A DNA stretch of 64,000 nt, taken from Lachnospiraceae bacterium (GTDB lineage: Bacteria > Bacillota > Clostridia > Lachnospirales > Lachnospiraceae). The stretch spans positions 97,787 to 161,786 of the forward strand of contig JAFZRY010000010.1 of the NCBI GenBank assembly GCA_017619615.1, in the 5' to 3' direction. The notes under the pieces are model-generated. The model was not told the DNA's origin and made no database searches. It worked only from the letters and a program-made list of their open reading frames with translations. Position 1 is the first letter of the stretch. Every line of letters begins with the position of its first letter. Position numbers and translations under genes: made by a program. Below, one piece after another: positions 10,363 through 62,325 of this stretch.

Positions 10363-10382
10363 TTTTTTGATTACAATGCCAA

Positions 10383-10428
10383 AAGTACGTTTTCCGAAAC
10401 GTGCTGGCACGGGAAGGAAAACGTACTT
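10383..10428 (+). other. Leader hairpin with 13-bp perfect stem
   Basis: Arms AAGTACGTTTTCC (10383-10395) and GGAAAACGTACTT (10416-10428) pair perfectly. The hairpin lies in the untranslated leader of the zinc operon and is not followed by a T-run, so it is not a simple terminator. Function unknown. Confidence 0.6.
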
Positions 10429-10478
10429 GGGGCATGCCCTTCATGAGCAAGTAGTGGGGCAGGGGCCCCATGGATTGC

Positions 10479-10600
10479 GAATGAAGGACAGGATCGTGAG
10501 AGCTCGAAGAGCGAAACGATCCGTAATCAAAAACTGACAGCATTTCGATGAAGAGCAGGATCGTGAGAACCCGAAGAGCGGAACGATCCGTAATCAAAAG
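10479..10600 (+). repeat. Two direct 55-bp hairpin repeats in the zinc-operon leader
   Basis: Copies at 10479-10533 and about 10546-10600 are roughly 85 percent alike. Each carries GGATCGT and ACGATCC arms that pair perfectly and ends GTAATCAAAA. The reverse complement of that end, TTTTGATTAC, stands at 10365-10374, so the leader is also framed by an inverted repeat, like a small inserted element. The repeats are not protein-coding. The ribosome site AAGGAG follows at about 10615. Confidence 0.65.
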
Positions 10601-13563: not shown

Positions 13564-14952
13564 ATGAAGAAAATGATCGTTGTGATTTGTCTGTGTCTGG
13601 GCTTGTTGCTGAGCGCGTGCAGCGGAAATTCCGGTGCGGCGACGGCGGAGATCTCTGAAGCCACGAGCGCGGATACCGCCGGGATGACGACCACGGATAC
13701 CTCTGCGGTAACCACGGCGGAGCCGGCGATCACCGCGGTAACGCTTCCCGCTGCGACAGAAACGCTCCCGGCGGATACGACGCCTGCGGCAAGCACAACT
13801 GAAACGACTCCTGCTGACGCCCCGGAAGAGACGACATTACCGACGACTACAGCAGAGCCGACAGAGATAACTGAAGAACCATCCGAAGAAACCACGGAGG
13901 CGCCTGCGGAAACGTCCGCCGCAGAAAGCACTGCGGAGACGTATACGCGGACACCGGACGGTGAGAAAGAGACCTTCAGCGAAGGCGAGGACACGCCCAT
14001 CCGCGTCACCGCCTTCACGCCCTATCGGGGCGTCCGCGCCGCCTGCTTCCCGCAAGAGGGCGACCGGGTCGCGGTCATTTCGCCCTCCACCCTGCCCACC
14101 CGGGCGGAGACGGACGCGCTCATCCGCGGCCTGCAGAGCTGGGGCTACGCCCCGATAGAAGGGCAGTACGTCTGCGCGGCAATGCGGACGTTCGAGGACT
14201 GCCGGGCCGATCTGGTCTGGGCATTGACAGATCCCTCCATCAAAGCCATTTTCTGCGTGCGCGGCGGGTACGGCGCCACGGAGGTGATGGATTCCATTCC
14301 GTTGGACATGATCCGGAACGCCGGGAAACTGATCCTCGGCTACAGCGACGTTTCCTGCTTTCACGCGGCCTGGACCGCAGCCGGCCTGCCTTCGGTCCAC
14401 GCTTCCATGAGCCGGATCTTTACGGGACTGCCCGGCGAATGCGCCTGGCTCACGCGTCAGATGCTGCACGGGCAGACGCCGGTCTATGAGTGCAGCGGCA
14501 GCGGTTATGACGTGCCGGGCACCGCCGAAGGCATCCTGATCGGCGGCAATCTGGCCACGCTGAGCGCGACGCTGGAGACGGAGTATGACTGCACGGCGCT
14601 GCAGCAGCCGTACGTCCTGTTCATCGAGGAAGTGGAAGAGGATCTGGAACATATCCACCGGTTCCTGACCATGCTGAAGCACCGGGGCGTACTGGATAAT
14701 GCGGCGGGGATCATCTTCGGCGAGTGGATCGATATCCCGCTGGAGAGCGAAACGACCGACGGTTCATCCCGCGGCGGCGCATATCAGGGCGTGGCGGACA
14801 TGATCCGCCGGGCATTCTTTCCGGATTCCGATATCCCGATTGCGTTCGGCTTCCCGGCCGGGCACGGCGACGTGAATTACCCGCTGCTGATGGGAGAGAA
14901 GGTCAGACTGCAGATAGGAGAGGACGGGTTCACGCTGGAGTGGACAGACTGA
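13564..14952 (+). CDS. Lipoprotein LD-carboxypeptidase (S66 family) with Thr-rich spacer
   Basis: A 462-residue serine peptidase of the LdcA/MccF family, which removes D-Ala from tetrapeptides in recycled peptidoglycan or cleaves related amide bonds. The lipobox LLSAC places it on the outer membrane face. Residues 25-130 are a Thr/Ala/Glu/Pro linker; the catalytic domain follows. The RGGYGA block precedes the nucleophile Ser261 in GYSDVS; the Glu is in FIEEVEEDLEH and the His is His434 in AGHGDVNYP, so the Ser-Glu-His triad is intact. LdcA is normally cytosolic; this anchored form would act outside. It lies 9 bases after znuB, suggesting a shared transcript. Confidence 0.88.
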   Translation: MKKMIVVICLCLGLLLSACSGNSGAATAEISEATSADTAGMTTTDTSAVTTAEPAITAVTLPAATETLPADTTPAASTTETTPADAPEETTLPTTTAEPTEITEEPSEETTEAPAETSAAESTAETYTRTPDGEKETFSEGEDTPIRVTAFTPYRGVRAACFPQEGDRVAVISPSTLPTRAETDALIRGLQSWGYAPIEGQYVCAAMRTFEDCRADLVWALTDPSIKAIFCVRGGYGATEVMDSIPLDMIRNAGKLILGYSDVSCFHAAWTAAGLPSVHASMSRIFTGLPGECAWLTRQMLHGQTPVYECSGSGYDVPGTAEGILIGGNLATLSATLETEYDCTALQQPYVLFIEEVEEDLEHIHRFLTMLKHRGVLDNAAGIIFGEWIDIPLESETTDGSSRGGAYQGVADMIRRAFFPDSDIPIAFGFPAGHGDVNYPLLMGEKVRLQIGEDGFTLEWTD

Positions 14953-16501: not shown

Positions 16502-17476
16502 ATGCTGGAAAATCTCAGAGTTACTTTTTCGATCGTCTTCCCGTTCCTGGCCTACATGACGATAGGCTCCTTTTTGAAACGCATCGGGGCCATTACGGAC
16601 GATTTCGCTGCGCAGGCCAACCGTCTCCTGGCCAACGTCCTGCTGCCCGTCAATATCTTCAACAGCCTGTACAATAAGGACCTCAGCACAGCCCTGCAGA
16701 CCCCCGCCGCCCTGTACAGCGCGGCGGGCATACTGGTGCTCACAGCCGTCCTGGTATGGCTGGTGCCCCGCTGGGAAAAGGATCCCGCCAAGCAGGGCGC
16801 CATGGTGCACTGCGGCTTCCGCAGCAACAGCATGCTGTTCGCCCTGCCCATCGCCAACGGGATCTTCGGCTATGAAGTGCCGGAGATCGTGATCGTGCTG
16901 GCGGCGGTCGTGCTGGTGAACAACGTGGAGACGGTCCCGCTGATGGAATACTATCGGGGCAAAACGCCCGCGTACGCCGGGCGGCAGGAGAAAAGCAGCT
17001 TTTCACTAAAAGGCATGGTGCTGGGATGGCTCAGGACGCCGCTGCTGATCGGGATGCTGATCGGTGCGGCCTGGGGCCTGCTGCGGATCCCGCTGCCGGA
17101 GCCCTGCGCCAAAGTGGTGAGCGGGCTGAGCGGCGTGGTGGTTCCGCTGGCTTTCGTCGTGCTGGGCGCGCGCCTGGATTTCGGCCACCTGAAGGCCAAC
17201 CGCCGGAACGTGATGCGCATGGTGGTCTTCAAACTGGTGATCGCCCCGGCGCTGTTCCTGATCTGGCCCATTGCGGCGCACTGGTCCCAGGAAAATATCG
17301 TGGCAGTGCTGGCGGCGTTCGGCGCGCCGGCGGCGATCATCGCCTACGCGATGACGGAATATTATGAATGCGACGCGGACATGGCGGGGGAGATCATTTC
17401 CCTGTCGTCCGCTTTATCGATGATCACCATCTTTTTGTGGATCTTCGGGATGAAACAATTCGGACTGATTTCGTGA
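16502..17476 (+). CDS. AEC family transporter (auxin efflux carrier type)
   Basis: A 324-residue membrane transporter with about ten membrane segments. The NVLLPVNIFNSLYNK segment, the mid-protein GVVVPLAFVVLGARLDFGHL block and the closing FGAPAAIIAYAMTEYY are typical of the AEC family, which moves small organic anions and hydrophobic acids. It ends 13 bases before the NRPS gene and shares its transcript, so export or import of the NRPS product or a building block is a reasonable inference. Confidence 0.85.
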   Translation: MLENLRVTFSIVFPFLAYMTIGSFLKRIGAITDDFAAQANRLLANVLLPVNIFNSLYNKDLSTALQTPAALYSAAGILVLTAVLVWLVPRWEKDPAKQGAMVHCGFRSNSMLFALPIANGIFGYEVPEIVIVLAAVVLVNNVETVPLMEYYRGKTPAYAGRQEKSSFSLKGMVLGWLRTPLLIGMLIGAAWGLLRIPLPEPCAKVVSGLSGVVVPLAFVVLGARLDFGHLKANRRNVMRMVVFKLVIAPALFLIWPIAAHWSQENIVAVLAAFGAPAAIIAYAMTEYYECDADMAGEIISLSSALSMITIFLWIFGMKQFGLIS

Positions 17477-17489
17477 AGGGAGCATCAGT

Positions 17490-20400
17490 ATGAAAGAGCA
17501 ACAGACGTATCCTTTGAGCCAGACCGAGCTGGGGATCTTCCTGGCCTGTCAGCAGCCTACCACGGCGTATAACCTCCCGCACCTGATCCCGCTGCCGGAA
17601 GAACTGGAGCCGGACTGCTTCCGCGCCGCTGTGGAAGCGTTTTTTGCGCGCCATCCCGGGCTTTTCAGCCGGATCACGACGGGAGAGGACGGCAGCCCCG
17701 TACGGGTCATCGTCCCGGAGCCGCTCGTGATCGAAGAGAAGGAACTTGATTCGTTGGACGACGTGCCGCTGTCTCATTTTGAGATCCAGAACGCCCCGCT
17801 GTACCGTCTGGCGTTTTACCGGGTGGGAGAGCAGCGGTATTTCTTCTTCGACTTCCACCATATCATCTTTGACGGCCATACCCTGGGCCTGCTGCTGAAA
17901 GAACTGCCGCTCCTGTACGAGGGCCGGACCGACCTGCCCCCGGAGGCCGTGTCTGCCGGCGAATATGCTCTGCAGGAGGCCGTGCGGCGGGAGAGCGCCG
18001 AATACGAGGCGGCGAAGGCCTGGTACACGGAGACCTTCTCCGGCATCGAAAACGACCCGGCGCTGCCCTTCGATAAGCAGGAGGGGACACCGCGCTATGT
18101 CATGAAAAAGCAGCGCCTCACGGCCCCGGCTTCGGAGCTGACGCCTTTCATCAAAAACCTGGGCATCCGCAGCTCCGCCTTCTTCCTGGGGGCCTTCAGC
18201 TGGCTCCTCGCGAAAATGAACGGCGAAAAAGAAGCCTTCCTCGCCACGGTGCACAACGGCCGCACGCCGGAGACCGCCTTCAGCAGCGGCATGTTCGTGA
18301 AGACGCTCCCCTTCTACGTAAAGTTCGCTGACGAAGATACGGTCGCGGATTACCTGCGGAAAGCCAGCGAGGAAATGACGATGGTCGTGCGGAACGACCT
18401 CTATTCCTTCGCCGACGCCGCGAAAGACCTGGGCGCGAGCGGCGAGATTCTGTTCGCCTACCAGGGGGATTACATGTTTGATGCGCACTTCTGCGGCGGA
18501 ACGCAGCGCCTGATCAAGCCGGACGTCCCGGACGGCAAAGGCCTGATGTCCCTGGAACTGCACAAGGACGGCGATGCTTACGAACTCTGGACCGAGTACC
18601 GCGCGGACCTCTACAAGCCCGAAATGATGGCGCAGCTGGCGGCTCTTTACGACCGGACCCTGCTCGAGTTCACACGCCGGGAGACACTCGGCGGAATCGA
18701 ACTGCTGGATGAAGCGCAGCTGGCCCTCCTGGAAGAAAACAACGCCACGGACGTGTCCGCCCTGGACTTCGACCATACCGTCGTGGATTACTTCTACCGG
18801 AATCTGGAGAAGGATCCGGACCACCCACTGGTCGTTTTCAAGGACCGCTCCTATACCTACGCGCAGGCGGAGGACATCACGAACCGCCTGGCTGCCCGCC
18901 TCATCGAACTGGGCGCCGGCCGCGAAAAAGTGGTCTCCGTCCTGATCCCGAAATGCGAATACACGATGCTCGCCAGCCTGGGCGTGCTGAAATCCGGCGC
19001 GGCCTACCAGCCACTGGATCCCACGTACCCGCGCGAGCGCCTGAATTTCATGATCAAAGATGCGGACGCCTGCGCCCTGATCCTGGACCGCGCGTTGGAG
19101 GGCCTGCTGAACGAATACGACGGCCCGCGCGTCTATCTGGACGAGATCCCCGGCCTGCCGGCGGCGGAGCGCCCCGCGGAACGGCCGCGCCCGGAGGACC
19201 TCTTCATCATGCTCTACACCTCCGGCACCACCGGCGTCCCGAAGGGCGTCATGCTGGAGCATCACAACATCCTGGCCTTCTGCCTGCTGAACAATAAGCG
19301 CTATGACGAGACCAGCGCCTCCCGCATGTCGGCCTACGCCTCCTACGGCTTCGACGCCGACATGATGGACCTCTACCCCGCCGTCACCTGCGGCGGCACC
19401 GTCTACATGATCCCGGAGGAGATGCGGCTGGACCTGCTCGGCCTGGGCGATTATTTCAACGAAGTGGGTATCACCCACTCCTTCATCACCACCCAGGTCG
19501 GCCGCCAGTTCGTGGAGGCCGTGGACTTGAAAACCGTGCAGCACTTCTTCGTGGGCGGCGAACGGCTGGTCCCGCTGGATCCGCCGGCGAACTACGTATT
19601 CCATAACGTGTACGGCCCGACCGAAGGCACCATTTTCTGCTGCGAGCAGCCGCTGCTGGAACGCTATTACAGCGTCCCCATCGGGAAGCACCTGGAAGAT
19701 TACAAGTTTTACGTACTCGATGAGAAAGGACGCCGGGTGCCCTGGGGCGTGAAGGGAGAACTGTACATCTCCGGACCGCAGGTGGGCCGCGGCTATCTGA
19801 ACCGGCCGGAAGAGAATAAGGAGGCGTTCCTGAACAATCCGTTCGAAACGGATCCGCTGTTCGCCAGACTGTACAAGACCGGCGACGTCGTGCGGTTCCT
19901 GCAGGACGGCACGGTGGACTTCATCGGCCGCTCCGACGGGCAGGTGAAGATCCGCGGCTTCCGCGTGGAGATGGCCGAGGTGGAGGAGATCATCCGCCGC
20001 TTCCCGGGCATCAAAGACGCGACGGTCAAGGATTTCACGGACCCGTCCGGCGTCAAATTCATCGCGGCTTACGTGGTGTCCGACGATCCGGTGGACATTG
20101 AGGCCCTCTGCGCCTTCATCGGCCGGAACAAGCCGCCGTACATGATCCCGGCCTGCGTGATGCAGATCGAAAAGATCCCGCTCAACCAGAACCAGAAGGT
20201 CAATAAGCGCGCCCTGCCCGCGCCGCAGCCGCGCGAGGTGGAGATTGTGCGGCCCGCGACGGAGGCCGAGAGCCGCATCTTCGACATCCTGTCCGGCATC
20301 CTGGGCCATTCCTCCTTCGGCGTCACCACGGATTTCAGCGAAGCGGGCCTGACCTCCGTTTCCTCCATCCGTTACTGCGTGCAGCTTTCCAAAGCCTTCG

Positions 20401-23400
20401 GCCGGCCTTTCAAAAACAGCGAACTGGCTGCGTACCCGACGGTGCGCGCGCTGGCGGCCCACGCGGGAGAAGACGCGCCGAAGCGCGATTACGCGGTCCG
20501 TGAGACCTACCCGCTGACCAAGACCCAGGAAGGCATCCTGGTCGACTGCCTGGCTAATCCGGGCGGCACGGCCTACAACATCCCGTACCTCTTCGAAATG
20601 GCGCCCACGGTGGATCCGGAGGCCCTGGCGGAGGCGGTGGAGAAAGCCATCGCCGCCCACCCGTACATGATGAGCCGCCTGGAAATGGACGAGACCGGCA
20701 GCGTGGTGGCCCGCCGCGAGGACAACGAGCCCGAGGTGGACGTCATCATGGGCCGCGTCCCGGCGGACGACAAGCTGGTGCGCCCCTTCAGCCTGCTGGG
20801 CGACAAGCTCTACCGCGCGGAGATCTATTACAGCGCGGACGGCGTCACCCTGTTCCTGGACGTCCATCACATCCTGTGCGACGGCACCAGCGAAGTGATC
20901 CTGCTGCGGGATATCTCGGCCGCGTTCTCCGGCGGGGAGCCGGAACCGGAGACCTATTCCGGGTACGAGATCGCGCTGGATGAGACCGAAGACCGCAAGG
21001 GCCCGCGCATGGAAGAAGCCAAAGCCTGGTACGACGCGCTGCTGCAGGGCAAGGAAACGGATTTCCGCATGAAGAAGGCCCTGAAGCCTTCCGGCGTGCC
21101 CGTGGAGTGCCTGGAGAAGGTGATCAGCGTGTCCCGCTCGTCGCTGGAAGCGTTCGCGGAACGCGGCGGCTTCAGCATGAACGCCCTCTTCAATTTCGTC
21201 TTCGGCCTGGTGCTGGGCAAATACCTGTATAAGGACGAGTCCCTGTTCACGACCATTTACAACGGCCGCAGCGATTCCCGTACGCTGAATACGGTTTCCA
21301 TGCTGGTCAAGACCCTGCCGGTCACGGTGCAGATCCGCGACGACGCGGAACTGATTTCCGTCCTGCGGGAGATGAAGGCCCAGCTGGAAGGCTCGCAGAA
21401 CCACGACATCTTTTCCTTCGCGGAGATCGCTTCCGCTTACGGCGTTGCCGCGGACAACCTTTTCGTCTACCACGGCGCGGACTTCAGCTTCGACCATATC
21501 GGGCCGGAGCCGGTGAAGTCCCGCACGCTGGAAATCGGCCAGGCGAAGGCGCCGTTCCACTTCGTGGTGTTCCCGAAGGACGACGGCTTCCTGTGCCGCC
21601 TGGAAGCGGACGGCTCGCTCTACGATCAGGACGCGATGGCCTCGTTCCTGCGCTGCTTCACGCACGTGCTGGAGCAGGTGGAACGCGTGCGCCTGGTCGG
21701 CGAGATCGAATACGTGACCGATGAGGATCTGGCGCAGTACGAGCGCTTCAACGACACGATGCAGCCCGTCCCGCCGGTGTCCTACAATAAACTGATGGAG
21801 GCGCAGGCCGCGCGCGTGCCGGACCGCATGGCGGTCATCGCGCAGGACGGCCGGTATACGTACCGCGAACTGAACGAAGCCGCGAACAGGATCGCGCACG
21901 CGCTGCGGGAATCGGGGGCAGCCGCCTCCGGCCGGGTCGTGGCGCTGATGCCGCGCGTGAAGGACGCCTACGCGGTCCGGCTCGGCATTTTAAAGAGCGG
22001 CGCGGCGTTCGTACCCGTGGATCCGAAATATCCGGACGACAGCATCGAATACATCATCACCGAATCCGGCGCCGGCGCCGTGATCACGACGGCCGCCGTC
22101 GCGCAGGAGCGAGCGGACATGCTGGCCCGCGCTGGGGCTCCGGTCTGCGACGTCGCGGAGCTGCTCGCGCACGAAAGCACCGCCGATCCGGACTGGGAGA
22201 TCGATCCGGACGGCCTGGCCTATCTGATCTTCACCTCCGGCTCCACCGGCAAGCCCAAGGGCGTGATGATCGCGCAGCACAACCTGGTCAACCTCTGCCT
22301 GGACGGCAAGAACTGCATCAAAGATGTGTTCGGTGCCGCCGGGGACGACGAAGTGGTCTGCGGCGCATTTGCCTCCCTGTCGTTCGATGTGTCCGTGCAG
22401 GAACAGTTCTTCCCGCTCAGCCACGGCTTCACGGTCGTGATCGCTTCGGAGGCGGACATCGCCAATCCGTTCCAGCTGGCGGAGCTCTTTGAACGGGAGC
22501 ACGTGGACATCTGCTTCATGACGCCTTCCTACGTATCCAACGCGGCGGACATGCCGCCCTTCATCGAAGCCCTCAAGCGGATGAAGGTGCTCTACATGGG
22601 CGGCGAGGCGCTGCCGGCGGAACTGTATGTCAAACTGCGCCAGTCCGGCGTGGAAACGGTCATCTACAACGGCTACGGCCCGACGGAGACCACGGTGTTC
22701 TCCACGTTCGGCCTGATGACGGATGAATACATCACGATCGGCAAGCCCGTGGGCAACACCAAGCTGTATCTGCTGGATCCGCACGGTCATATCCTGCCGA
22801 TCGGCGCCATCGGCGACCTGACGATCGCCGGCGACGGCGTGGGCCGCGGCTACCTGCATCTTCCGGATAAGACGGCGGAGCGATACATCACGGTGGACGG
22901 CCTGCCGGCCTTCCGCTCCGGCGACATGGCCCGCTACAACACGGAGGGCAACATCGAGTTCTTCGGCCGCCTGGACAACCAGGTGAAGCTGCGCGGCCTG
23001 CGTGTGGAACTGGATGAGATCATCAAGGCCATTTCCTCGTACGGCCCGATCACCTCCGCCATCGTCGTGGTGAAAAACAACGCCGCGGAGGGCGATTATC
23101 TGGCGGCGTACTACACGGCCTCGGAAGAGGTGGACAAGGACGAGCTCCGCGCCTTCATCGGCAGGACGCTGACGCCGTATATGATCCCGCATGCGATGAT
23201 GCAGCTGGAAAAGCTGCCGCTGACCCCCAACGGCAAGGTGGATAAGAAAGCGCTGCCCGAGCCGGCGGCGGAAGAGAGCAGCAGCCAGCCGGTGCGGAAG
23301 CCGAAGGGCGAGCTGGAAAAGCAGATCGCCGGCCTCTTCTCGAAGGCGCTGGGCCGCAGAGGGATCGGCCGCGACGAAGACTTCTTCGACCTGGGCGGCA

Positions 23401-24749
23401 CTTCGCTGTCCGCTTCCAAGGTGGCCATGCTGGCCGTGGGCGCAGGCATGCCGATCGCCTACGGTGACGTTTTCGAATTCCCGACGGTCGCGGACATGGC
23501 CGCCCACATCAAGCAGGTCCGGAGCGGCGCGCAGCTGGCTGCGGCGGAAGAAGCCCTGGCCTCCGGCCTTCCCACCGGCGAAGACGTGCTGGCGCACAAC
23601 ACGCTGCGCTTCCTGGACGGGATCAGACCGGTCCGCCCGCTGGGCCGCGTGCTGCTGACCGGTGCGACCGGCTTCCTGGGCATCCACATCCTGCGCGAAC
23701 TGCTGCGCCAGGAGGTTCCGGTGCTGGCCCTGTGCCGCGGCACGAAAGACCTGGACGCGGAGCTTCGCCTGAAGGCGATGCTGATGTACTACTTCGACTC
23801 GCCGCTGGATGAGGAAGTGGACCGGCTGGTGACGGTCGCAGACGGCGACGTGACCAACGCGGACCTGGCAGAGAAACTGAAGGACGAAGCGTTCGACACG
23901 ATCATCAACTGCGCCGCACTGGTGAAGCACTTCGCGGCGGACGACATCATCGAACGGGTGAACGTGGGCGGCGTGGAGAACATGATCGAACTGGCGCTGG
24001 AGCGGAACGCGCGGCTGGTCCAGATATCCACGGTCTCCGTGGCCGGCGAGAACGTCGGCGAAAAATTCCCGGAGACCTTCAGGCTGTTCGAGAACCAGCT
24101 GGCCGTGGGACAGGACATCTCCAACAAGTACATCCACTCCAAGTACATGGGCGAAAAGGTCCTGTACGAAGCGGTGCAGGAGAAGGGCCTGGACGGCAAG
24201 GTCGTCCGCGTCGGCAACCTGATGGGCCGCCAGAGCGACGGCGAGTTCCAGATCAATTCCGTGACGAACGGCTTCATCCGGAACCTGAAGGGCTACAAGG
24301 CGCTGGGCTGCTTCCCGGTGACGGCCTGCGATTCCCGCGTGGACTTCTCGCCGATCGACGAGACGGCGAAGGCGATCCTCCTGCTGGCGCAGACGCCAAA
24401 GGAGTTCACCACCTTCCACGCGGCCAACTCGCATCCGGTGGAGATGGGCGACATCATCGCGGCCATGAACGCGGCGGGCTTCGCCATCGAGACGGTGCCG
24501 GAAGAGGAGTTCAACGAACGCCTCGGGGCCATGCTGGCGGACGAGACCGCCAACATGCTGGTCTCCAGTCTCATCAACTACGCCTCCAGCGACCAGAAGG
24601 TCCACCAGTTCATCCAGACGGACAACCGCTTCAGCATCAAGGCCCTCTACCGCCTGGGCTTCAAGTGGCCCATCACGGACGAGACGTACCTGACGCACAT
24701 GCTGGAAGCGCTGCAGTCGCTGGATTACTTCGAGCGGACGGATATTTAA
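17490..24749 (+). CDS. Two-module nonribosomal peptide synthetase with terminal reductase (C-A-T-C-A-T-R)
   Basis: A 2419-residue NRPS predicted to join two amino acids and release them as an aldehyde. C1: residues 5-420, HHIIFDG at 123-129. A1: about 430-910, with YTSGTTGVPKG and YKTGD. T1: Ser956 in AGLTSVSS. C2: 990-1420, HHILCDG at 1126-1132. A2: 1430-1890, with FTSGSTGKPKG and NGKVDKKALP. T2: Ser1972 in DLGGTSLS. R: 2050-2419, a thioester reductase with GATGFLG (2058-2064) and catalytic Tyr2219/Lys2223 in YMGEK. There is no thioesterase or epimerase domain. A C domain in the first module suggests N-acylation of the first residue. This architecture matches the gut clostridial NRPSs known to make protease-inhibiting dipeptide aldehydes and pyrazinones. 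Hand-read pocket residues (235/236/239/278/299/301/322/330/331) are D-A-M-F-F-G-V-I-F for A1, suggesting an aliphatic residue, and D-V-Q-F-Y-G-G-V-F for A2, unassigned. The ribosome site AAGGGAG precedes the ATG. Confidence 0.93.
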   Translation: MKEQQTYPLSQTELGIFLACQQPTTAYNLPHLIPLPEELEPDCFRAAVEAFFARHPGLFSRITTGEDGSPVRVIVPEPLVIEEKELDSLDDVPLSHFEIQNAPLYRLAFYRVGEQRYFFFDFHHIIFDGHTLGLLLKELPLLYEGRTDLPPEAVSAGEYALQEAVRRESAEYEAAKAWYTETFSGIENDPALPFDKQEGTPRYVMKKQRLTAPASELTPFIKNLGIRSSAFFLGAFSWLLAKMNGEKEAFLATVHNGRTPETAFSSGMFVKTLPFYVKFADEDTVADYLRKASEEMTMVVRNDLYSFADAAKDLGASGEILFAYQGDYMFDAHFCGGTQRLIKPDVPDGKGLMSLELHKDGDAYELWTEYRADLYKPEMMAQLAALYDRTLLEFTRRETLGGIELLDEAQLALLEENNATDVSALDFDHTVVDYFYRNLEKDPDHPLVVFKDRSYTYAQAEDITNRLAARLIELGAGREKVVSVLIPKCEYTMLASLGVLKSGAAYQPLDPTYPRERLNFMIKDADACALILDRALEGLLNEYDGPRVYLDEIPGLPAAERPAERPRPEDLFIMLYTSGTTGVPKGVMLEHHNILAFCLLNNKRYDETSASRMSAYASYGFDADMMDLYPAVTCGGTVYMIPEEMRLDLLGLGDYFNEVGITHSFITTQVGRQFVEAVDLKTVQHFFVGGERLVPLDPPANYVFHNVYGPTEGTIFCCEQPLLERYYSVPIGKHLEDYKFYVLDEKGRRVPWGVKGELYISGPQVGRGYLNRPEENKEAFLNNPFETDPLFARLYKTGDVVRFLQDGTVDFIGRSDGQVKIRGFRVEMAEVEEIIRRFPGIKDATVKDFTDPSGVKFIAAYVVSDDPVDIEALCAFIGRNKPPYMIPACVMQIEKIPLNQNQKVNKRALPAPQPREVEIVRPATEAESRIFDILSGILGHSSFGVTTDFSEAGLTSVSSIRYCVQLSKAFGRPFKNSELAAYPTVRALAAHAGEDAPKRDYAVRETYPLTKTQEGILVDCLANPGGTAYNIPYLFEMAPTVDPEALAEAVEKAIAAHPYMMSRLEMDETGSVVARREDNEPEVDVIMGRVPADDKLVRPFSLLGDKLYRAEIYYSADGVTLFLDVHHILCDGTSEVILLRDISAAFSGGEPEPETYSGYEIALDETEDRKGPRMEEAKAWYDALLQGKETDFRMKKALKPSGVPVECLEKVISVSRSSLEAFAERGGFSMNALFNFVFGLVLGKYLYKDESLFTTIYNGRSDSRTLNTVSMLVKTLPVTVQIRDDAELISVLREMKAQLEGSQNHDIFSFAEIASAYGVAADNLFVYHGADFSFDHIGPEPVKSRTLEIGQAKAPFHFVVFPKDDGFLCRLEADGSLYDQDAMASFLRCFTHVLEQVERVRLVGEIEYVTDEDLAQYERFNDTMQPVPPVSYNKLMEAQAARVPDRMAVIAQDGRYTYRELNEAANRIAHALRESGAAASGRVVALMPRVKDAYAVRLGILKSGAAFVPVDPKYPDDSIEYIITESGAGAVITTAAVAQERADMLARAGAPVCDVAELLAHESTADPDWEIDPDGLAYLIFTSGSTGKPKGVMIAQHNLVNLCLDGKNCIKDVFGAAGDDEVVCGAFASLSFDVSVQEQFFPLSHGFTVVIASEADIANPFQLAELFEREHVDICFMTPSYVSNAADMPPFIEALKRMKVLYMGGEALPAELYVKLRQSGVETVIYNGYGPTETTVFSTFGLMTDEYITIGKPVGNTKLYLLDPHGHILPIGAIGDLTIAGDGVGRGYLHLPDKTAERYITVDGLPAFRSGDMARYNTEGNIEFFGRLDNQVKLRGLRVELDEIIKAISSYGPITSAIVVVKNNAAEGDYLAAYYTASEEVDKDELRAFIGRTLTPYMIPHAMMQLEKLPLTPNGKVDKKALPEPAAEESSSQPVRKPKGELEKQIAGLFSKALGRRGIGRDEDFFDLGGTSLSASKVAMLAVGAGMPIAYGDVFEFPTVADMAAHIKQVRSGAQLAAAEEALASGLPTGEDVLAHNTLRFLDGIRPVRPLGRVLLTGATGFLGIHILRELLRQEVPVLALCRGTKDLDAELRLKAMLMYYFDSPLDEEVDRLVTVADGDVTNADLAEKLKDEAFDTIINCAALVKHFAADDIIERVNVGGVENMIELALERNARLVQISTVSVAGENVGEKFPETFRLFENQLAVGQDISNKYIHSKYMGEKVLYEAVQEKGLDGKVVRVGNLMGRQSDGEFQINSVTNGFIRNLKGYKALGCFPVTACDSRVDFSPIDETAKAILLLAQTPKEFTTFHAANSHPVEMGDIIAAMNAAGFAIETVPEEEFNERLGAMLADETANMLVSSLINYASSDQKVHQFIQTDNRFSIKALYRLGFKWPITDETYLTHMLEALQSLDYFERTDI

Positions 24750-24780
24750 AAAAGGGGGCGGACCCGGCGGCCCGCCCCGA
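24750..24780 (-). terminator. Terminator of the PPTase gene
   Basis: On the minus strand a GC-rich hairpin (GGGGCGGGCC paired with TCCGCCCC, imperfect) is followed by TTTTTT. It lies between the convergent NRPS and PPTase genes. Confidence 0.65.
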
Positions 24781-24794
24781 AGAGGCTCCTTCCA

Positions 24795-25388
24795 TTATAT
24801 CTGACAGCACACAGAGATCCGGTGGCCCCGGATCTCTTTTTCCGTGAACCGGCAGCCCTGTTCCGTCTCCCGCCCGGGATGCAGCGTCAGCTCCCGCAGA
24901 GGATAGGAGAGGCCCGTGCCCAGGCATTTCAGATAGCTTTCCTTGCGCACCCACAGACGGGTGAATGCGGGGGAAGCGTCCGCCTCCGCCTGCTCCGCCA
25001 GCCAGCGGCGCTCTTCCCCGGAAAAGGCGAAGGCGGCAATGTCCGGATCCGGGAACAGAAGAGGCTCCGCGTCCGTGCCGACGGGCCTGTCCGAAACGGC
25101 GCAGACGGCGAGTTCTCCGCCGTGGGAGAGATTGAAATGCAGATTCGTGTAATACCGCAGATACGGTTTTCCGGCCTGTGTATGGTCCAGCTGCAGGTCC
25201 CGCACGCCTTCCGCACGCAGCATCTCCGCAGCCAGGGTCCACGCGGCGAGACCTCGAATGCGGTCGTCTTCCTGCCGGTAGCGGACGATGCGCTCCCGCT
25301 TTTCGGGCCAGGGCAGACGGAAAAGCGCCTCGCGGAAATAGGCGGGGTCGCGGTACGGTTCGAGGCCGGAAGTGCTGAAACGGAGCAT
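24795..25388 (-). CDS. Sfp-type 4'-phosphopantetheinyl transferase
   Basis: A 197-residue enzyme that moves phosphopantetheine from CoA to the serine of carrier domains. Signatures are FNLSHG (85-90), VGTDAEP with the magnesium-binding Asp106 and Glu108, and WVRKESYLK (146-154). It is the natural activator of Ser956 and Ser1972 in the convergent NRPS next door, 46 bases away. The ATG at 25388 follows GGAAAGGA; the open frame continues upstream but without family similarity. The sequence is somewhat short for the Sfp group (about 220), lacking part of the N-terminal half. Confidence 0.9.
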   Translation of the reverse strand: MLRFSTSGLEPYRDPAYFREALFRLPWPEKRERIVRYRQEDDRIRGLAAWTLAAEMLRAEGVRDLQLDHTQAGKPYLRYYTNLHFNLSHGGELAVCAVSDRPVGTDAEPLLFPDPDIAAFAFSGEERRWLAEQAEADASPAFTRLWVRKESYLKCLGTGLSYPLRELTLHPGRETEQGCRFTEKEIRGHRISVCCQI

Positions 25389-40703: not shown

Positions 40704-41045
40704 CGGAGAAGGGTGAATGATCGCGGGTCCTAACGGGACACGAGGAAAGTCCGGGCTTCACAGGGCAGGATGCCGGATAACGTCCGGCGGAGGCGACTCC
40801 CGGGAAAGTGCAACAGAAAGATACCGCCGGAGCAATCCGGTAAGGGTGAAAAGGCGGTGCAAGAGACCACCGGCCGGCCGGTAACGGGCGGCGCTCTGCA
40901 AACCCCATCCGAAGCAAGCACAAACAGAAGGCATAAGGCGGCCCGTCTGCTTTCGGGTAGTGCGCTAGAGCCTGCCGGCAACGGCAGGTCCAGACAGATG
41001 ATCATTCACGACAGAACCCGGCTTACAGCCCTTCTCCGTTTTTTT
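40704..41045 (+). ncRNA. rnpB: RNase P RNA (bacterial class A)
   Basis: The catalytic RNA that trims the 5' leaders of tRNA precursors. The universally conserved core is present: GAGGAAAGTCCGGGC near 40742 and ACAGAACCCGGCTTACAG near 41011. The ends pair as helix P1, CGGAGAAGGG (40704-40713) with CCCTTCTCCG (41029-41038), and the adjacent TGAATGATC pairs with GATCATTCA. The length of about 335 bases and the layout suit the ancestral A type seen in Clostridia. A run of seven T follows P1 and serves as its terminator. Confidence 0.95.
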
Positions 41046-62046: not shown

Positions 62047-62119
62047 TTTTTTTCGCAAGTGATCTTCAGTCCTCAGCCGTAGACCGGCGGCGGAAGCCTC
62101 AAGGCTTACGATCCTCCTT

Positions 62120-62292
62120 AAAATGTGCTCTCGGGTAAGTCTCCTGGCTCCGCTTCCCCCTCGGACCGCCTTCTCACGGGTCGCCCCGCAATGGCTGAGT
62201 TTCCTCCCGGTCCTCGTCCGCGATACAGTTGCCGGTACAGCTGAGGCCTCGCACCTCATTCCTCGTTACGGCCTCGCGGCCACCCGATGCGG
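62120..62292 (-). promoter_or_regulatory. Cobalamin (B12) riboswitch
   Basis: On the minus strand the leader has the AGCCAGGAGACTTACC segment (the 3' core of the B12 riboswitch) and a B12-box-like CAGCCATTG, with a long paired region beginning near 62292. It lies about 75 bases before the DUF4430 gene. When cobalamin binds it would normally reduce expression of the two genes. Confidence 0.88.
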
Positions 62293-62296
62293 AAAC

Positions 62297-62325
62297 ATTA
62301 TAGCAGTATGCGCCTGATAAAACAA
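62297..62325 (-). promoter_or_regulatory. Promoter of the DUF4430-ECF operon
   Basis: Minus strand TTGTTT (62325-62320), 17-base spacer, perfect TATAAT (62302-62297), just before the riboswitch. Confidence 0.75.

Follow-up and report, generated by a model that had tools for sequence, protein, structure and literature searches.

A reductase-terminated nonribosomal peptide synthetase in a Lachnospiraceae genome: a probable source of N-acyl dipeptide aldehydes in a family tied to partner-switching genes

Introduction

Peptide aldehydes are among the described products of the nonribosomal peptide synthetases (NRPSs) of gut bacteria, and here we analyze a putative synthetase of this kind in a 64,000-nucleotide stretch of a Lachnospiraceae genome (GenBank assembly GCA_017619615.1, contig JAFZRY010000010.1, positions 97,787 to 161,786 of the forward strand). 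This whole stretch is called the window, and coordinates refer to it. The cluster, at 16502..25388, carries genes for a two-module NRPS, a membrane carrier of the AEC family and a 4'-phosphopantetheinyl transferase (PPTase). The accounts cited below are given as they appear in excerpts of the respective papers. In one of them, N-octanoyl-Met-Phe-H is the product of a Clostridium NRPS cluster expressed in E. coli, ruminopeptin is an N-acylated Leu-Glu aldehyde made by a gut NRPS, and gut peptide aldehydes of this type are described as inhibitors of cathepsins B, L, C and S and of proteasomes (PMC8518294). In an excerpted review, the reductase of AusA releases an aldehyde that cyclizes spontaneously, and an N-acyl tail is said to be a possible stabilizer of such peptide aldehydes (PMC8210680). 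The setting is a common one, since a survey, again as excerpted, counted 5,346 NRPS clusters in 8,160 rumen genomes (PMC8241843).

With the gut N-acyl dipeptide aldehyde synthetases (BGC0001686; ruminopeptin of Ruminococcus bromii) the window NRPS would share aldehyde release, two amino acids, an origin in gut Firmicutes and, very likely, an N-acyl start. Its cluster differs from theirs by the AEC carrier and the convergent PPTase, the likeness being one of predicted product and logic rather than of aligned sequence. With AusA/AusB it shares two modules ending in a reductase (R) domain and a partner PPTase, and AusA and AusB are the top NCBIfam matches of the two genes. However, the window NRPS has an extra N-terminal condensation (C) domain, which AusA is not known to have, and both genes fall below the equivalog cut-offs (54 against 225 bits for the PPTase); the NRPS was not accepted as an aureusimine synthetase, as NF047350, although first by score, reached 969.1 bits against a cut-off of 2500. 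The solved structure closest to the terminal carrier-reductase part is the didomain 6vtj/6vtz, which presumably comes from a rumen methanogen NRPS.

Results

An intact two-module synthetase

The NRPS gene (17490..24749, + strand, 2,419 residues) is an open reading frame (ORF) without an internal stop. In its product Pfam found two Condensation, two AMP-binding and two PP-binding stretches and one NAD_binding_4 reductase, with zero matches to a thioesterase family, which bears out the order C-A-T-C-A-T-R without a thioesterase (A, adenylation; T, carrier) that a first-pass annotation had proposed from the sequence alone. All domains are encoded on the + strand. The first module consists of C1 (17499..18671; PF00668, HHIIFDG), assigned tentatively to the initiating type by the tree, of A1 (18768..20228), delimited by alignment, and of T1 (20274..20462; PF00550 and motif). 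It is followed by the elongating domain C2 (20499..21680; PF00668, HHILCDG), by A2 (21780..23270; alignment), by T2 (23298..23519), located by its motif and by alignment to solved structures, and by the terminal thioester reductase (23655..24746; PF07993).

The HHxxxDG motifs start at residues 123 in C1 and 1126 in C2. The carrier serines are Ser956, within a variant core GLTS, and Ser1972, within GGTS; the R domain has GATGFLG from residue 2058, and its Tyr2214 and Lys2218 align with the YxxSK of 6vtj and AusA. The active-site motifs of the C, T and R domains are therefore all intact, and none of the residues named in the first-pass annotation (both serines, both HHxxxDG motifs, the reductase Tyr/Lys pair) was missing on re-reading. 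Alignment also reproduced its two pocket codes, D-A-M-F-F-G-V-I-F and D-V-Q-F-Y-G-G-V-F, each now extended by a final lysine to DAMFFGVIFK for A1 and DVQFYGGVFK for A2, in what we take to be GrsA numbering. Pocket codes of the form DMK..G..SK occur among relatives; tying them to the glutamate of ruminopeptin would be guesswork, and we draw no evidence from it.

An assembly frameshift, another concern of that annotation, was not found. The nearest named relatives encode the same full-length protein, at 96% identity in both L022 and L023, which are titled Lachnospiraceae bacterium and come from goat omasum, and at 75% in L021, which belongs to the RUG series (RUG we take to mean rumen uncultured genome); the frame is therefore not an assembly slip. 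We also observed that the cluster looks mosaic when L022 and L023 are compared with the window, with the NRPS at 96%, the AEC protein at 81% and 89%, and the PPTase at 98% and 75%.

Chain initiation and release

In the C-domain tree, C1 fell into a clade made up of 39 N-terminal C domains with no internal one (support 95 in the SH-like approximate likelihood ratio test), and C2 grouped with internal C domains. The clade holds 39 of the 48 N-terminal rows; among the nine outside it, L036 is in fact internal, its locus being truncated at a contig end, while L012, L015, L047, L080 and L102 have long branches and were flagged as unsure. An alignment of 18 C1 domains shows no variation at residues H124, D128 and G129, and the structure model of C1 has a mean pLDDT (predicted local distance difference test score) of 90.8.

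The chains of the set start in two ways, either with a C domain, as in the window, or with an A-T pair. Among the first A domains, as extracted, 13 of 17 lack Asp235 and have valine or isoleucine in its place, compared to 1 of 127 other A domains, and this lone exception (L031) stems from a first module, which was split in the domain search. The four first A domains with aspartate come from loci cut by a contig end (L051, L074) or shortened (L013, L014); L011, one of the 13, is from a shortened locus as well. Asp235 is the residue that binds the amino group of the amino-acid substrate, and because it is replaced in these 13, the acid loaded by chains starting with A-T seems to lack an amino group. 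As C1 seems to belong to the initiating class and the first A domains of relatives are mostly acid-loading, the amine of the product is probably blocked. The simplest reading of these sequences is that C1 takes an acyl group in trans, which would make the product N-acylated.

The best solved relative of the R domain was 6vtj with 295.5 bits, in an alignment to the T2-R part that spans residues 7-485 of the 489 given, followed by the R domains of AusA (173.5 bits) and MxaA (83.7 bits).

The PPTase

The PPTase gene (24795..25388, - strand, 197 residues from ATG; PF01648, 56.7 bits) encodes the motifs GxDxE and WxxKES, which match what we take to be the Sfp-type signatures, GxDxE and WxxKE(S/A). 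The first-pass annotation had an Sfp-type PPTase 46 bases from the NRPS; type and proximity hold, with the gap corrected to 45 bp from stop to stop. The gene is convergent with the NRPS and therefore stands outside the operon. Terminator-like stems follow the NRPS (24813..24837, + strand) and the PPTase (24755..24778, - strand), both from a consensus scan that found 12 such sites in the region, with 7.1 expected.

The genus is represented by 16 genomes, eight of which have a long NRPS match (E <1e-297) and eight of which do not (best E 2.4e-16). Two PF01648 matches were found in seven of the eight carriers, though the second one of G010 falls below the curated cut-off; the eighth carrier, the window's own genome, has only the window PPTase. 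Seven of the eight non-carriers have one match, and G015 has two. Since the second PF01648 match thus tracks the NRPS, the window PPTase is probably an extra, dedicated copy, and the genus-wide count argues against its being the sole, housekeeping PPTase, a candidate that we rejected. No match to AcpS was found in the own genome (1.98 Mb, 90.8% complete), an absence that may be due to incompleteness. The PPTase gene adjoins the NRPS in the own genome, G004, G011, G005 and G010, and lies apart from it in G001, G003 and G008.

The AEC carrier and the second pocket

The AEC gene (PF03547, 80 bits; 16502..17476, + strand, 324 residues) encodes a membrane carrier and candidate exporter and ends 13 bp upstream of the NRPS on the same strand. 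The consensus scan found no terminator-like site between the two; promoter-like sites in the region were not above chance (2 found, 1.4 expected). The strand, the short gap and the uninterrupted spacer all agree with the shared transcript asserted earlier, and co-transcription itself can be called probable from this operon-like layout. In a sample of 43 loci of relatives (NRPS frames of 2,200 codons or more; many are close relatives rather than independent cases, and flanks are often cut by contig ends), AEC adjoins the NRPS at the same place in three, L021, L022 and L023.

An ancestral position of AEC next to thyA was considered and found unsupported: no thyA was seen by four distant homologues (L124-L127) within flanks of up to 1.5 kb per side. 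In the window, an LD-carboxypeptidase-type (S66) peptidase gene (13564-14952) lies upstream of the dihydrofolate reductase gene and thyA, a place that it keeps in L021-L023.

Within the genus, an upstream AEC gene occurs together with the A2 code DVQFYGGVFK in the own genome, G004, G011 and G001. In G010, whose NRPS is 65% identical in the second half, the A2 code is DAQFDGGVTK, and a MATE-HATPase gene follows the NRPS directly; its product shares 46% identity with the counterpart in a relative among the rumen Bacilli, and the AEC homologue of G010 (46%) is on another contig. The A2 code is DAQFDGGITK in 26 of the 39 C-first chains tallied. G005 and G008 (48%) have the A2 code DVHFLGGIFK and neither carrier beside the NRPS, which makes the older carrier state in the genus uncertain. 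Judging by these sequences, the change of carrier and that of the second pocket may belong to one branch; such a pairing would fit a carrier matched to the product, yet a single event is no proof on its own.

Signalling and transport genes near the NRPSs of relatives

An unexpected result is that the wider family is linked to a partner-switching module. Within 6 kb of the NRPS, tblastn searches of the 43 loci found MATE in 34, HATPase in 35, STAS in 26, SpoIIE in 24, PPTase in 23 and AEC in 3. Representative loci encode a MATE transporter that ends in an RsbW-like HATPase_c_2 domain, a STAS protein about 98 residues long and a SpoIIE/PP2C phosphatase, which in L058 bears a C-terminal HATPase. 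The PPTase, NRPS and MATE/HATPase genes overlap by 4 bp in many loci. The gene order varies by lineage, with MATE upstream in the three-module relatives L045, L065 and L070, and with STAS and the phosphatase directly 3' of the NRPS in L104 and L105. With four SpoIIE genes in a 2 Mb genome, a chance neighbor within 6 kb should be rare, a few per cent by a rough estimate.

Among 120 genomes of the family, one per genus, 16 matched the half from C2 to R with an E value of 1e-90 or lower, and the match reached the reductase in ten: the own genome, G022, G027, G095, G096, G115, G118, G119, G153 and G093 (25% identity). In the eight such loci outside the own genome and G093, we found STAS in four, SpoIIE in two, MATE in six and HATPase together with MATE in three; in one of them, L115, MATE, HATPase, STAS and SpoIIE were all absent near the NRPS.

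Several loci have unusual arrangements. In G003, a PPTase and a STAS domain share one open frame of 304 codons (L103:10666-11577, - strand), followed by an RsbU-type phosphatase, and the same contig carries the NRPS at a distance of about 115 kb. Beside the NRPS of L042 a STAS domain is fused to an APH-type phosphotransferase domain (L042:6775-7947), and a 384-residue STAS-like protein is encoded near that of L075. In G010, a radical SAM/SPASM protein and a 443-residue frame without a Pfam match lie between MATE-HATPase and STAS/RsbU (L106:5800-8501).

A partner-switching pair in the own genome

No STAS, RsbU or MATE-HATPase gene was found at the window cluster. On contig C7 of the own genome, however, a STAS gene with the motif SSAG (L097:8809-9105) is followed by an RsbU-type gene (L097:9118-11238), whose 707-residue product has HAMP, SpoIIE and HATPase_c_2 domains. 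The own genome thus has an RsbU/RsbV/RsbW-type layout, STAS with SSAG beside a SpoIIE phosphatase with HATPase. Full-length matches to the RsbU-type protein with at least 44% identity were found in G000, G003, G004, G005, G008, G010, G011 and G015, with a match in G001 that runs up to the contig end. The protein is present in all eight NRPS carriers of the genus and in one of the eight non-carriers, G015 (one-sided p 0.0007, uncorrected for kinship). In the family set, six of the 120 genomes have a match at E 1e-70 or better; five match only from about residue 200 onward, and the sixth is the own genome. We saw the close, full-length form of the protein within the genus and among rumen Bacilli (26-30% identity), with more distant phosphatases elsewhere.

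The structure model of the RsbU-like protein (mean pLDDT 83.2, predicted template modeling score 0.49) had Rv1364c RsbU-RsbW (3ke6) as its best structural match. Its N-terminal part is modeled as a mixed alpha/beta region flanked by two long helices, and we infer from the model that these helices may cross the membrane. The combination of PP2C and HATPase is shared with Rv1364c and with SpoIIE/RsbU phosphatases; unlike these, the present protein is linked to an NRPS and has an N-terminal membrane-type part of its own. No sigma factor was identified with it, no search aimed at a target having been made.

Distribution and other window features

Sixty loci came from a single scan of named genomes, 12 with rumen or omasum in the title, 21 more with RUG isolate names and 27 with neither. 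Elsewhere in the window, we noted a Clostridiales-1 RNA (10368-10529), an RNase P class A RNA (40705-41041) and a cobalamin riboswitch (62117-62302).

Discussion

By its domain order and motifs, the window NRPS is a new and intact member of the gut peptide-aldehyde kind; it most likely N-acylates, and its lineage has a carrier and a second pocket of its own. We assign a probability of about 0.6 to the whole reading in which the locus makes an N-acyl dipeptide aldehyde. In this pathway the PPTase would arm Ser956 and Ser1972, C1 would join an acyl group, delivered in trans as acyl-CoA or on an acyl carrier protein (ACP), to the first residue on T1, and C2 would add the second residue. The R domain would then free the chain as an aldehyde by two-electron reduction with NAD(P)H, while the acyl cap would prevent pyrazinone formation. 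The AEC carrier would probably export the aldehyde, a predicted reversible inhibitor of cysteine or serine proteases.

Several results weigh against this reading. The best solved relatives of C1 are elongating C domains (TycC with 83.9 bits, LgrA with about 71), with starter domains at about 27 bits, and a fold search with C1 again ranked elongating domains best and starter domains lower; this leaves the acyl donor for C1 putative. Typing C1 through solved structures and fold search did not separate the starter from the elongating class. No stand-alone acyl ligase or ACP was found among ten Pfam-scanned ORFs of the window, and R domains are also able to carry the reduction one step further, to an alcohol. 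On the side of export, AEC stands beside the NRPS only in the three relatives and the window, and in G015 an intact AEC gene adjoins the 3' part of the PPTase gene with the NRPS absent between them.

If C1 were vestigial or inactive as an initiator, a free-amine dipeptide aldehyde would cyclize and then be oxidized, as in aureusimine biosynthesis, to give a pyrazinone. The rank of AusA among NCBIfam models and the spontaneous cyclization of its aldehyde speak for such an outcome, but we consider it unlikely: the score of 969 bits is far under the cut-off, AusA is not known to have an N-terminal C domain, and C1 retains HHIIFDG with its invariant residues. Because pyrazinone formation needs a free amine, which an acyl group probably blocks here, a pyrazinone is not expected, so that from the earlier suggestion of a dipeptide aldehyde or a pyrazinone we keep the former. 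Marginally less likely still is a four-electron reduction by R, which would give an N-acyl dipeptide alcohol, or a later alteration of the aldehyde by other chemistry. The myxochelin NRPS MxcG, presumably an alcohol or amine producer, and the reductase of MxaA were also matched; against this, the closest R domain of known product is that of AusA, which yields an aldehyde, and MxaA scores less than half as high.

The odds are nearly even when it comes to the AEC protein, which could be a metabolite or amino-acid carrier outside the pathway, merely sharing a transcript or a site with the NRPS. AEC proteins usually transport small acids, and no NRPS was seen in the flanks inspected around the more distant homologues (46-52% identity) of G007, G009, G010 and G012. 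Across the 16 genus genomes, on the other hand, orthologues with at least 67% identity occur only at the NRPS site (window, G001, G004, G011) and at the NRPS-free site of G015, which bears on both sides. At that site (L153, G015:C267:1-3172) the AEC and PPTase stops are about 50 bp apart, and the rest of the PPTase gene is beyond the contig start; the genome is 67% complete. Either the site was emptied by a recent loss or was never filled, or it reflects an assembly fault or collapse, or the genes are able to do without the NRPS.

Returning to the N-acyl dipeptide aldehyde as the favored product, its synthetase lineage is tied to a partner-switching pair, a STAS protein and an RsbU-RsbW phosphatase-kinase with a putative membrane part. 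We tentatively suggest that the peptide-aldehyde NRPSs of rumen Firmicutes could be signal-gated, with RsbU-RsbW, STAS and MATE-RsbW controlling production or export and possibly sensing the product. On this suggestion, AEC might have replaced MATE-HATPase in the window lineage as the A2 pocket changed from DAQFDGG[IV]TK to DVQFYGGVFK, with STAS/RsbU kept at another locus. No link between NRPSs and partner switching was found in the titles and opening abstract lines of the literature searched.

The linkage of NRPS, transporter and switch genes in relatives hints at production or export of the compound upon a sensed signal. Since gut peptide aldehydes are reported, in the excerpt cited, as inhibitors of host cathepsins and proteasomes (PMC8518294), the link between synthetase and switch offers a testable answer to the question of when such compounds are made. 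The fusion of MATE and HATPase suggests, moreover, that export itself could be a regulated step.

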